Source of the DNA: Bacillota bacterium
GTDB taxonomy: Bacteria; Bacillota; DTU065
NCBI GenBank assembly: GCA_018435125.1
Contig: JAHDNZ010000053.1
Coordinates: 1-43,097 of the forward strand
Length of the DNA stretch: 43,097 nt
Direction of reading: 5' to 3'
Both the position numbers and the translations under genes were made by a program. Below the pieces are notes generated by a model that was not told where the DNA came from, did no database searches, and saw only the letters and a list, made by a program, of their open reading frames with translations. Positions 17,854 through 39,607 of the stretch are shown piece by piece. Within the stretch, counting starts at the first letter, position 1; every line of letters starts with the position of its first letter.

Positions 17854-18105
17854 CTATTTTTTCATATAGCCACGTACAAGCTCTTCTACTAGAGCGTCTC
17901 TGCTAACACTTCTTATCAATGTACGAGCATTGTTGTGACTGGTAATATACGTGGGATCTCCACTCATCAAATAGCCGACTATCTGACCTACAGGATCATA
18001 TCCTTTTTCTTCTAAAGCTTTATAGACTTCGCGAATAATGCTACTGGTGCCGTTTTTCAACTCTTCAGCCGAAAAGCGCATAGTACGATCTGTTACATCA
18101 GGCAT
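17854..18105 (-). CDS. ireB: IreB family regulatory phosphoprotein
   Basis: Small cytoplasmic protein (83 residues) of the IreB/YrzL family (DUF965); in Enterococcus it is phosphorylated by the kinase IreK and affects cephalosporin resistance. It shows DRTMRFS with phosphorylatable Thr near the start, EVYKALEEKGYDPVGQIVGYLMSGDPTYITSHNNAR and the RDALVEELVRGYMKK end. A longer frame to 18165 lacks a usable Shine-Dalgarno; the ATG at 18105 has AAGGTGAG upstream and matches family length. Normally found between alaS and ruvX, as here. Confidence 0.94.
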   Translation of the reverse strand: MPDVTDRTMRFSAEELKNGTSSIIREVYKALEEKGYDPVGQIVGYLMSGDPTYITSHNNARTLIRSVSRDALVEELVRGYMKK

Positions 18106-18165
18106 GGTTCTCACCTTCCTCGGTAAAAATACACTTGCATGAAAATTTCGCGTTTCCTCAAACAA

Positions 18166-18446
18166 CTCCTTTTTAGGGCAAAAGCATTTCCTTTACCTAC
18201 ATAATACCCTAAAGAAGACTAAGCAAACCAGTACCGGATTTGGTTAAAATAGCAAAGTAATCTGATTTAAGAAAGACAACTAGCAAATTAGCTCTTTAAC
18301 CATCAGCTGCTCTTTCTTGTTAAGAGGCTCTTAATACCTAGGATACTATCTATAGTATATCAAATATTTGTGACAGACTAAATCTAACCCTTTCTAACCT
18401 CTAAAGACTTTTCTTAACAAAATTATTTTAGTAGTTTGCTTATCAA
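18166..18446. other. Intergenic region between DUF2905 gene and ireB with two palindromes
   Basis: No credible ORF. Two perfect inverted repeats sit 8 bp apart: TTAAGAG-g-CTCTTAA (18320-18334) and ATACTAT-ct-ATAGTAT (18343-18358). The second overlaps a TATACT hexamer on the minus strand. The ireB operon promoter is likely here, though I could not find a full -35/-10 pair. Confidence 0.4.
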
Positions 18447-18644
18447 CTAATAAATAAGACTAACCAGCCCACTTAAAAGCAACATGCTTGTTAGCGGTAT
18501 GAAAATAAATAGATTTTCTTTGCTAATCTTAATATCCCCCGGCAAATTAAAAAACCAGGTAAAAGAATTAGCTCTACCCACCAATAAGCCAACGATTATC
18601 AAAACAAAACCACAAGTTATTAATAAGTGAGATATATTGCTAAT
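18447..18644 (-). CDS. DUF2905 family small membrane protein, apparent ATT start
   Basis: 65 residues: SNISHLLITCGFVLIIVGLL forms one membrane segment. The family-typical loop FNLPGDIKISKENLFIFIP follows, then a second membrane segment and the TAG at 18449-18447. The motif LPGDI.I...N..F.IPLTTS is diagnostic of DUF2905, function unknown. No ATG, GTG or TTG is available at the right place: an in-frame TAA lies 1 bp above the ATT at 18644-18642. GAGGTG precedes that ATT by 8 nt, and the resulting MSNISHLL matches family N-termini, so I infer an AUU start. A terminator after alaS separates it from alaS. Confidence 0.7.
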   Translation of the reverse strand: MSNISHLLITCGFVLIIVGLLVGRANSFTWFFNLPGDIKISKENLFIFIPLTSMLLLSGLVSLIY

Positions 18645-18696
18645 TTAATATTCACCTCGAGACACTTGTCAATCCGAGTTTGAGTTTTTTAGTTTT

Positions 18697-18727
18697 AAAA
18701 AAAGAGACGGTTAACCGCCTCTTTTTT
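18697..18727 (-). terminator. Intrinsic terminator after alaS
   Basis: Stem GAGACGG-TTAA-CCGCCTC (one G-U pair in RNA) flanked by A and T runs. On the minus strand it ends in seven T. It overlaps the alaS stop codon. Confidence 0.85.
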
Positions 18728-21347
18728 AACTTTGCAATTTCTGGATTATTTCAGGAAGTTTAGCTAACATAGCGGTAATATTTTCAGGATTACTGCCACC
18801 TGCTTGAGCACAATCCGCTCTTCCTCCACCGGAGCCTCCTACTATATGGGCTAGTTCTTTGACTATATTACCAGCCTGCAGGCCTTTTTTTACCAAGTTA
18901 GTTGAAACAAGGCATAACAAAATAGCCTTGCCTTCTTTGGAACCTGAAAGCAATAGGACACCATCTAGGTCTTTTTTAACTGAATCACCCATAGCCCTTA
19001 AGGTATTAATATCGGTCTGGCCAAGATTAACGGCTTTGTAAGGTATCTCACCTACTAAATTAAAATCTGCCAATAGATCTTTGCCTTTTTGAGCTGCAAC
19101 TTTAGCTTCTAGAGCCATAAAAGTCTTCTTCAACTCGTTATGCTCTTCTTCTAATTTTTCTATCCTTTGAGGCAGATCCCAAGGACTGGTTTTTAAGGAG
19201 GTGGCCAGATTTGAGACCAGATCTTCGATTTTTACAAATTCTTCATAGGCAGCCTCGCCGGTAACTGCTTCGATACGTCTTATCCCTGAAGCTATACTAC
19301 CCTCAGTTAGAATCTTAATTAAACCTATTTCACCAGTAGCTTTGATGTGAGTACCTCCACAAAGCTCCTTAGAATAATCATCTATGGTAACCAGTCTTAC
19401 CTTATCACCATATTTTTCTTCAAATAAAGCCGTCGCACCTAGTTCTTTGGCTGCATCGAGCTCCATAATTTCTACCTTTACAGGTAGATTAGTTCTCACC
19501 TTTTCATTGGCAAGAGCTTCAATTAAGCGCAGCTCTTCTTTGGTAGGAGCCTGATAATGCGTAAAGTCAAATCTTAGTCTTTCAGCTTCAACTAAAGAGC
19601 CGGCCTGGTTAACATGTTCTCCTAAAACCTGTTTTAGGGCTTTATGAAGAAGATGGGTTGCGGTGTGATTCCTGGCAATTTTCTGCCTCCTATTTTGATC
19701 AACAACCGCTTCTACTTCAGTATTAAGCTTTAGCGAGCCCTCTAAGACTTCTACCAAGTGAAGGATGAGGTTCTCAGAAGGAGTCTTAACATCCAAAACC
19801 TTGGCTTTGCCACCTGGAAAAGTTAGATAACCTGTATCGCCAATTTGACCACCTTTTTCGGCATAAAAAGGCGTCTTTTCTAAAATTACCATTCCTATGC
19901 CTTTTAACTCGTCAACTAGATCATTATCCTGGATAAGCCCTTTAACCTGAGTTTTAGCTAAAAGACAATCATAGCCAATAAAAGTTGTGGAGAAATTAGG
20001 AGCAATACTATTATAAAAAGCCTGATCGGCACGGACATAATCATTATCACCATGAGCTTTGCGAGCCATTTCCCGTTGACTTGCCAAAGCTTTTTCAAAG
20101 CCTGTTTGATCTATGGTAAAATGCTTTTCCTTAGCGATCTCTTCTGTAAGTTCGCGGGGGAAACCATAAGTATCATATAGCTTAAAGACCTCTTCTCCCG
20201 GAAGTGTTTTGACGCCTTCTTTTGTAAGCTCTTCTAAAAGATCGCCTAAAATTGTTAAACCTTGATCTAAAGTGGCTTGGAAACGTTTTTCTTCCATAGC
20301 AATAATTTTAAGAATATAGGCTTTCTTTTCTAAAAGCTCAGGATAACCACCCTGCATCTGTCTAATAACTACCTCTACGACCTCGGAAAGGAAAGAGCCT
20401 TTAATACCGATTAGTTTGGCAAAACGAACTGCCCGCCTGATAATTCTTCTAAGAACATAACCACGACCTTCATTGGAAGGCATAATCCCATCAGCTACCA
20501 TAAAGGTCATGGCACGTGAGTGATCGGTAATCACTCTTAAAGCCGTATCATCTTTATTATTATCTCCATAGTTTATGCCAGCCAAAGAGGCAATCTTATC
20601 TATAAGCGGTCGATTGGTATCTATCTCAAAAACATTGTTTACCCCTTGCAAAATGACACACATTCTCTCCAGTCCCATACCGGTATCGATACCTTTTTGC
20701 TTAAGAGGTGTATAGTTGCCTATTTCATCTTTATGAAACTGGATAAAAACCAGGTTCCAAAACTCTAAAAAACGTCCGCAGTCACAATCCGGTCCACAGT
20801 TTTTATCATGACAACCGACTTGTTCACCTAAGTCGATAAAGATTTCCGAGTTCGGTCCGCAAGGGCCGATACCCAACTCCCAAAAGTTAGTTTCTTTACC
20901 GAGTCTAACAATTCTTTCCTTAGGTTGACCTTGTTTTACCCAAAGATCAAACGCTTCATCATCATCTAGGTAGACCGTAACCCAGATCTTTTCTTTAGGT
21001 AGCTTTAGTCTTTCGGTGACAAACTCCCAAGCCCAGGGAATTACCTCAGCCTTAAAATAATCCCCAAAAGAGAAGTTACCTAACATTTCAAAAAATGTCA
21101 GATGTCTTGATGTACGACCCACATTATCTAAATCACCTGTACGCATACACTTTTGACAGGTGGTAAGTCTAGATGCTTCTGGTTTAGCTTCCCCGAGAAA
21201 GTAGGGTTTTAGAGGAACCATACCAGCACCTGTAAGAAGCAAGGTGGGATCAGATTTGGGTATCAAAGAAAAACTAGGCAGTGCCTTATGAGCTTTTTGT
21301 TGAAAAAATTCCAAATACATCTTTCGTAATTGATCAGCAGTTATCAT
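18726..21347 (-). CDS. alaS: Alanine--tRNA ligase
   Basis: Charges tRNA-Ala. 873 residues: class II catalytic core at the N-terminus (MVPLKPYFLGEA, FFEMLGNFSFGDYF, ...GMGLERM, NEGRGYVLRR), then the editing domain with HTATHLLHKAL and CGGTHIKATGEIG, and the C-Ala domain with GSGGGRADCAQAGG. All landmarks are present. ATG at 21347 with GAGGG 7 nt upstream; that Shine-Dalgarno is one arm of a small palindrome (GACCCTCGGGTC, 21353-21364), and a second GGAGGTGA lies just above it. No room for a T-box leader in the 63-bp gap. Order AI-2E permease-alaS-ireB-ruvX is conserved in Firmicutes. Confidence 0.98.
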   Translation of the reverse strand: MITADQLRKMYLEFFQQKAHKALPSFSLIPKSDPTLLLTGAGMVPLKPYFLGEAKPEASRLTTCQKCMRTGDLDNVGRTSRHLTFFEMLGNFSFGDYFKAEVIPWAWEFVTERLKLPKEKIWVTVYLDDDEAFDLWVKQGQPKERIVRLGKETNFWELGIGPCGPNSEIFIDLGEQVGCHDKNCGPDCDCGRFLEFWNLVFIQFHKDEIGNYTPLKQKGIDTGMGLERMCVILQGVNNVFEIDTNRPLIDKIASLAGINYGDNNKDDTALRVITDHSRAMTFMVADGIMPSNEGRGYVLRRIIRRAVRFAKLIGIKGSFLSEVVEVVIRQMQGGYPELLEKKAYILKIIAMEEKRFQATLDQGLTILGDLLEELTKEGVKTLPGEEVFKLYDTYGFPRELTEEIAKEKHFTIDQTGFEKALASQREMARKAHGDNDYVRADQAFYNSIAPNFSTTFIGYDCLLAKTQVKGLIQDNDLVDELKGIGMVILEKTPFYAEKGGQIGDTGYLTFPGGKAKVLDVKTPSENLILHLVEVLEGSLKLNTEVEAVVDQNRRQKIARNHTATHLLHKALKQVLGEHVNQAGSLVEAERLRFDFTHYQAPTKEELRLIEALANEKVRTNLPVKVEIMELDAAKELGATALFEEKYGDKVRLVTIDDYSKELCGGTHIKATGEIGLIKILTEGSIASGIRRIEAVTGEAAYEEFVKIEDLVSNLATSLKTSPWDLPQRIEKLEEEHNELKKTFMALEAKVAAQKGKDLLADFNLVGEIPYKAVNLGQTDINTLRAMGDSVKKDLDGVLLLSGSKEGKAILLCLVSTNLVKKGLQAGNIVKELAHIVGGSGGGRADCAQAGGSNPENITAMLAKLPEIIQKLQS

Positions 21348-29241: not shown

Positions 29242-30408
29242 ATGAAGGATAGATCCGCATTTGTAATTATCATTGTGCTTTTACTAGCCGCTACCGGTCT
29301 TATAATTAAGTCGTTCTTTCAACCCCCGCGTGTTGTAACTCAAGATAAACAAGATAAGGAAGATAAAATCAATCTTCGCGTAAGTGGTTATGGAGGGTAC
29401 CTTGAAGAAGATTACTTAAAAGAAATTAAAGAGGAATATGAAAATATTAATCCTTCTATTCGAATTATCTTAGAGATATCACCGGCTTCTATCGAAGATA
29501 TGTCCTTTAAATCTGGCTTTATCCCTAACTATGAACAACGTATTTTAGCTGATTATGCAGCAAATAATTCTCCTGATATTTTTTATATACCACCTGGTAG
29601 AATAAGAAGATATGCTGAAGCTGAAGCTTTATTAAATGTTCAACCTTTTCTAGATGAAGAATATAGCGAGCTTTCAAGAAATATCGAAGGTGGTACCTTT
29701 GCTATTAGCAGAGGATCAATTACTCTAGGTATTTCCTCTAAAACCAAATATCCCGAAGAAGCTTTTAAGCTGCTAGATTATATTTACAAAGATTACCAAA
29801 AACGATTAGAAGAAATTAGAGCCAATGCTATCAAACAAGCAGCTAAATTTCTCCTCCCAGAAAGTGGCCTAGAAAGTAGTGATGATTTTCAATTAACATG
29901 GAATGCCTATGCTGTTGCCATGAATAGATCAGATTTAGTTTTATGGACTGCACCTGATAGTGAACCACTTTATTGGGGTTTCCGAGCACCTTATGATCAT
30001 TATGATTATGTCTATGTACAATTAGGTTTTCGAAAAGAAGACAGGACAAAAATAACATCCGGTTCTGTATCATTACGTGCCCCATTTGCAGATAATTTCA
30101 AAATGGTTCATAACTTCAAAACCTGTATGGGGCTTTTAATAAGAGCAGTTGATCCAACCCTTACCACAGAAGAGGTAGAAAAAGTTCTTATAGACCTGGG
30201 TTTTGATCTAGATAACTTTGACTTAACACCATTTCATATGATTGGTGCTGTTTACTATCACGGTTATGAATATAGAACAGAAGCTCTAGGTATTAAAAAA
30301 GAGCATACAATGGCACAGGAATTTTCAAAAATGACGTTTGGACCTTCTTACAAACTGATTGGCAGAAAACAAGATGCCTGGCGAACGCCATACAGACGTT
30401 ATCCTTAG
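29242..30408 (+). CDS. Membrane-anchored, solute-binding-protein-like protein of unknown function
   Basis: 388 residues. N-terminal membrane anchor or signal (about 6-24). Residues 43-135 look like the start of a family 1 extracellular solute-binding protein (INLRVSGYGGYLEEDYLKEI, then AANNSPDIFYIPPG). They run straight into a piece resembling the end of such proteins (GISSKTKYPEEAFKLLDYI, about 160-180). The central part of a normal binding protein is absent, so this is a condensed or fused form. The last 200 residues match nothing I know. No permease or ATPase gene accompanies it. RBS AGGAGG-like GTAGGAGGC upstream of the ATG. Confidence 0.65.
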   Translation: MKDRSAFVIIIVLLLAATGLIIKSFFQPPRVVTQDKQDKEDKINLRVSGYGGYLEEDYLKEIKEEYENINPSIRIILEISPASIEDMSFKSGFIPNYEQRILADYAANNSPDIFYIPPGRIRRYAEAEALLNVQPFLDEEYSELSRNIEGGTFAISRGSITLGISSKTKYPEEAFKLLDYIYKDYQKRLEEIRANAIKQAAKFLLPESGLESSDDFQLTWNAYAVAMNRSDLVLWTAPDSEPLYWGFRAPYDHYDYVYVQLGFRKEDRTKITSGSVSLRAPFADNFKMVHNFKTCMGLLIRAVDPTLTTEEVEKVLIDLGFDLDNFDLTPFHMIGAVYYHGYEYRTEALGIKKEHTMAQEFSKMTFGPSYKLIGRKQDAWRTPYRRYP

Positions 30409-38966: not shown

Positions 38967-38981
38967 CCTGCCCACCTCCAT

Positions 38982-39066
38982 TTCTCTTAGACTCGCCGAA
39001 AAAGGCGCGTAAAAACGTCTTAAAGCCTTGCCCGAGCGGTTTTGAGTTGCAGGTTGTCAGCCACTC
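38982..39066 (-). ncRNA. Structured 5' leader of rplU (L21-leader-like)
   Basis: The transcript before rplU folds into at least two hairpins. One is AGAC...GTCT enclosing CGCC/GGCG (38989-39020); another pairs GAGT with ACTC near 39045-39066. The conserved-looking single strand CTCAAAACCGCTCGGG lies between. Position and appearance fit the ribosomal protein L21 leader known in Firmicutes, which is thought to regulate the operon by product binding. Match judged by eye. Confidence 0.6.
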
Positions 39067-39226: not shown

Positions 39227-39607
39227 TTGACTGTGCAAAAAGATAAAGATGGGGTAACTATTTTAGATGGGCAAGTAAACGTAGCCAATATTTGCTGTGT
39301 TAGTAAAGCACAAATGGGGGATTATGTAACTTCATTATCTCCCCAAGATTTAAAGAAGGTTGCAATTGCGGTAGCGAGATCTTTGGACTTAATGACTCAT
39401 TATAATAGATTGAAAAAAAGACTACCAGATAAACTGAAATTTATTGATAGGATAAAACAGGATCGGAATATAGCTCAAGATTATATAAAAAAACTCAGGA
39501 CTATTGCTCAAGTATCCACCGATGATGAGCTTGAAGAATTTATCCGATCAAAATTGACTTCAAGTGGGGGAACTTTGGATAAGTTCCTCTTTACTTTATA
39601 TGTATAA
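39227..39607 (+). pseudogene. Probable MazF/PemK-type toxin remnant (C-terminal part)
   Basis: 126 codons from a TTG that lacks a Shine-Dalgarno; an in-frame TAA lies 15 bp upstream of it. The piece VNVANICCVSKAQMGDYVTSLSP followed by DLKKVAIAVARSLDL resembles the last part of PemK/MazF toxins (an 'I.TVSK.RL..YV..LS..DL.KVD.AL..SL.L' pattern), followed by a helical tail. The catalytic N-terminal half is missing and no antitoxin gene is adjacent. It is AT-rich, on the opposite strand to its neighbours, and followed by a terminator. Assignment is tentative. Confidence 0.35.

Follow-up and report, generated by a model that had tools for sequence, protein, structure and literature searches.

A DUF2905 frame between alaS and ireB

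The window, by which we mean the whole 43,097-nucleotide stretch of DNA analysed here, carries on its minus strand a frame of the DUF2905 family (PF11146). Along that strand follow in order the alaS stop, a hairpin with a T run, about 50 nt that include GAGGTGA, a TAA, an ATT, the DUF2905 frame itself and a TAG. The features are listed below, in the order in which they are read; G002 is the only other genome of the class in our sample with a DUF2905 gene.

18726..21347, minus: ORF of the upstream neighbour, which we take from its sequence to be alaS
18697..18723, minus: hairpin and T run upstream of DUF2905, probable alaS terminator (-16.4 kcal/mol, z -5.6)
18652..18658, minus: Shine-Dalgarno (SD) match GAGGTGA, 7 nt before the ATT (sequence, shuffles)
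18620..18655, minus: ORF of 11 codons that begins with GTG, overlaps the SD out of frame and ends with TAA at 18622-18620
18645..18647, minus: in-frame TAA immediately upstream of the ATT (sequence)
18642..18644, minus: ATT codon, where the G002 orthologue has its ATG (ungapped alignment; no ATG, GTG or TTG 27 to 44 codons before the motif)
18447..18644, minus: DUF2905 (PF11146) frame from ATT to TAG, 65 sense codons, 56.6 bits
18600..18602, minus: TTG, start of a 51-aa ORF from mechanical ORF calling (ORF list)
18447..18449, minus: early in-frame stop TAG, within the homology to G002 (alignment with G002)
18423..18446, minus: frame past the TAG, LISKLLK and then TAA, resembling the G002 tail (alignment, shuffles)
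17854..18105, minus: ireB, downstream neighbour (PF06135, 116.2 bits)

The product, a small membrane protein, matches the PF11146 profile well above the cut-off (56.6 versus 22.2 bits; E, 3.2e-15), which places it in the family, and contains the LPGDI motif and two hydrophobic stretches. A genome search found a single copy of the gene. The hairpin behind alaS was not flagged by a pattern scan. A sigma-70-like pair, TTGACA at 18672-18667 and TATTAA at 18650-18645, was noticed by eye and set aside; transcription from it would begin past the ATT, and a promoter scan did not list this pair and gave one hit, located elsewhere, with 1.9 expected in shuffles. Folding of a hairpin across the SD and the ATT was no better than in shuffles (z -0.9).

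Our sample of the class comprised five genomes, of which two, the window genome and G002, have a DUF2905 gene. In G002 the gene occupies the same place before ireB, downstream of a hairpin-like sequence similar to the one behind alaS; its ATG stands behind GAGAGGAG. In the three genomes without the gene (G001, G003 and G004), alaS and ireB are adjacent and no DUF2905 remnant was seen between them. The gene appears to be unneeded in the class, since three of its five genomes do without it. Comparison within the class hence relies on one orthologue, which comes from another genus and is 54% identical. Among the 66 loci of the family with enough flank, DUF2905 lies beside ireB only in the window and in G002. 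A plasmid search gave no match, and DUF2905 or PF11146 is named in no paper of the literature searched. The ireB leader (18106-18230), too, is conserved across all five genomes of the class: GGAAGGTGA precedes the ATG, and about 50 to 70 nt upstream lies a AAAAAGGAGTT-like element.

The codon at the family start position

Members of the family start about 33 to 37 codons before the motif. In an ungapped alignment that runs through the first hydrophobic stretch, the methionine of G002 falls on the window ATT codon, and L042, a locus from a MAG named Desulfotignum, has an ATG in the same N-terminal register. Because the ATG codons of G002 and L042 share this register, the ATT is the expected start site. 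The only in-frame ATG, GTG or TTG codons before the motif are the TTG at 18602 and two more, 19, 13 and 12 codons ahead of it. When the 50 nt upstream of the ATT are shuffled, an SD match of 7 nt arises in 0.3% of cases. In predicted pairing the SD does not stand out within the window: 13 of 35 genes, DUF2905 included, pair as strongly or more strongly.

These observations agree with the original prediction, whose description of the frame was correct in all essentials. It had assigned a 65-codon open frame to DUF2905, with an in-frame stop directly above the start (the TAA at 18647-18645), an SD at a proper distance (the 8 nt that it counted from GAGGTG are the 7 nt from GAGGTGA) and an ATT at the expected start that gave a family-like N-terminus. 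The prediction had also allowed that a frameshift might make the GTG at 18655 the real start; the ungapped register with G002 and L042 places the start at the ATT and rules this out.

Whether the ATT is conserved, a check that the prediction had proposed, was examined in a family survey of 243 loci, 241 of them in addition to the window and L042. The survey drew on a phylum sample of 398 genomes, 243 with a match, and covers L042 and 242 of these 243; G390, with its match at a contig end, was left out, and L032 was dropped as the same locus as L033. An ATG, GTG or TTG stands 27 to 44 codons ahead of the motif in 241 of the 243 loci (162/163 and 79/80 in the two parts of the survey), and the window gene is one of two exceptions, with ATT, the other being L221, with CTG. 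At none of the other loci examined is ATT the sole start. A relative with ATG at this codon was half of what the prediction had named as speaking against it, and G002 is such a relative. As judged from these alignments, the window ATT is derived or erroneous and not conserved.

At L221 (G233:C1, around 2760638), a DUF2905 frame follows ruvB; its sole start-like codon, the CTG, overlaps the ruvB stop, and its tail is intact. Judged by sequence, L221 makes a better case than the window gene for a DUF2905 member with a working non-canonical start.

The C-terminal end and the conserved positions

The premature-looking TAG is a second lesion, overlooked in the original prediction. A query with the G002 protein aligns through it (residues 3 to 72 of 73, 54% identity, 66.5 bits), and for the six residues past it an equal score against the G002 tail is reached in 0.4% of shuffles. 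Between motif and stop, 240 of the other 242 loci (162/162 and 78/80) have 36 to 41 codons and the window has 32; the remaining two loci are L229, which is frameshifted, and L231, which is cut by a contig end. Read-through of the TAG to the next TAA would restore a span of 40 codons, to which we attach little weight, as the chance that the next stop lands in the family range is 0.31. No internal stop was found among the other DUF2905 matches listed. Loss of the tail removes from the window product the basic residues that occur among the last five in 160 of 163 loci. The truncation amounts to about 11% (65 of 73 codons remain), less than the shortening of >20% used as a criterion for pseudogenes (PMC2916853). 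The window gene thus differs from the PF11146 family in having no canonical start, a C-terminus about eight codons short and a place between alaS and ireB; elsewhere in the family the gene often follows ruvB (41 of the 66 loci with sufficient flank). Separately, L229 (G295:C7:13455-13654) is a broken copy, with DUF2905 spread over two frames.

In an alignment of conserved columns that left out L229 and L231, the window deviates at 5 of 39 positions and G002 at none. The changes are G to S, K/R to H, G to F and two hydrophobic positions to G and Y. As many or more deviations are found in 12 of 240 other loci, seven of them in the divergent family f62, and 12 other loci, two of them broken or cut, have a lower PF11146 score. 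The window had been the most deviant of the first 163 loci, a claim that was dropped once lower-scoring loci were added. Pairwise omega between the window and G002 is 0.42, which is unremarkable, as 157 of the 711 other pairs with comparable dS have a value at least as high. A relative-rate count with L042 as outgroup gave 5 versus 3 sites, which is a weak comparison. Neutral simulation from the G002 gene produced start loss together with exactly one stop in 1 to 13% of runs, depending on divergence, and does not discriminate.

Probable early decay and its alternatives

Our results suggest, with a probability of roughly 0.65, that the DUF2905 gene of the window is a young gene in early decay. 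One changed start codon behind a good SD could be a weak functional start or a first step of loss. Loss is favoured because both ends of the gene are altered and most of the class lacks it, and because the early TAG is explained by a decaying gene and not by a regulated start. Measured against the intact orthologue in G002, the start codon and the TAG are disabling changes of the kind that marks a pseudogene. From the present state of the sequence and its alignments we infer both the loss of function and the order of events: the start codon would have turned to ATT on the way to the window genome, and the TAG would have arisen some eight codons short of the ancestral end, while the SD and the bulk of the protein sequence remain intact. 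Any residual protein would come from inefficient AUU initiation, perhaps with about one-tenth of the yield of AUG if Staphylococcus aureus is a guide, and would be without the basic C-terminal tail of nearly all family members. Against decay stand the strong SD and a frame that, the TAG aside, is uninterrupted, with no frameshift and with LPGDI and the hydrophobic pattern kept. The small truncation, the unremarkable omega, the weak relative-rate count, the other loci that deviate as much or score lower and the single orthologue available in the class also weigh against it. Pseudogenes are known to arise through altered start codons, though in a minority of cases: in Salmonella, 2 of 346 pseudogenes have such a change, one of them from ATG to ATT (PMC2916853). 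What the window gene shares with the Salmonella cases is ATG turned to ATT by a point mutation, with the gene otherwise intact. However, the Salmonella cases were judged against closely related intact genomes, whereas here the nearest orthologue belongs to another genus and is 54% identical (PMC2916853).

It is doubtful that the gene is instead functional and starts with AUU, with a strong SD that compensates for the codon, a low output, possible repression by IF3 as for infC and a tolerated short C-terminus. The GAGGTGA at the right spacing is consistent with this reading, and so is infC of the same genome (L068, 270-310), which appears to begin ATT AGC AAA after GGGAGGG. ATT AGC is found at infC in all four class members where infC was found (G002 gave no infC hit), the infC starts being assigned by N-terminal register and SD. 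The infC and DUF2905 starts have the 8 nt ATTAGCAA in common and a strong SD each. Because infC of this genome appears to start with ATT, AUU-capable machinery is probably present, and the DUF2905 frame may perhaps still yield a truncated protein through weak translation from AUU. Precedents are described in a study of S. aureus: cvfC1 (61 aa) has an AUU start with an extended SD and about 10% of AUG output, in poor medium AUU and AUA starts yield about 10% of the AUG level, and citZ has a lineage-restricted AUA start that initiates (PMC13009471). As in DUF2905, AUU stands behind a strong SD in infC and cvfC1, and cvfC1 also encodes a small protein (PMC5472188, PMC13009471). L221, with CTG as its only start-like codon, likewise favours a working DUF2905 start.

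However, the cvfC1 codon is conserved among staphylococci and supported by ribosome profiling and a reporter (PMC13009471), whereas the DUF2905 ATT is a candidate start read from the sequence. Of the marks of regulated non-canonical starts of the infC, sigR and cvfC1 type, the window gene has the strong SD and not a conserved codon: G002 differs, and no other ATT-only locus was found among those examined. Nor does control at the start codon explain the early TAG, and the gene is missing in three of the five class genomes. IF3 represses the GTC start of sigR, as overexpression of IF3 and fidelity mutants have demonstrated (PMC5472188). For DUF2905, initiation-factor control had been proposed on the sole basis of the codon itself, and it is unsupported. 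The original prediction holds for the family, the frame, the SD and the position of the ATT; the ATT is not conserved, and initiation-factor control finds no support beyond the codon. Examined at its start alone, a gene defective at both ends can be mistaken for one with a rare regulated start, and family-wide checks of both ends help to tell the two apart. It is unlikely that the gene encodes a working small membrane protein that recently passed from AUG to AUU, lost its tail and is made at a low level under IF3 control alongside infC. If the AUU start were functional, a small membrane protein would join the short list of AUU-initiated genes.

A sequence or assembly error, or a mixture of strains, at one or both lesions is improbable. 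In favour of an error, the assembly comprises 91 contigs and has 2.56% contamination, but two independent errors would be needed within one 73-codon gene, conserved residues are changed too, and the 34 other window ORFs listed are open with ATG, GTG or TTG starts (mechanically assigned, except for ireB). Translation from the TTG at 18602 into a 51-aa protein, the ORF found by mechanical calling, is scarcely credible. By eye no SD stands ahead of this codon, and little of the first hydrophobic stretch would remain in the product; the codon is also 19 codons from the motif, compared with 27 to 44 for the canonical codons of 241 of 243 loci.

Elsewhere in the window, a solute-binding-protein-like ORF (29242-30408) has a Pfam match of only 45 residues and may be degenerate. 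A 126-aa ORF on the plus strand (39227-39607) has no Pfam match and, by eye, looks like the C-terminal half of a MazF/PemK-like protein. A ribosomal protein L21 leader (RF00559, 44.8 bits) lies at 38979-39051 on the minus strand.
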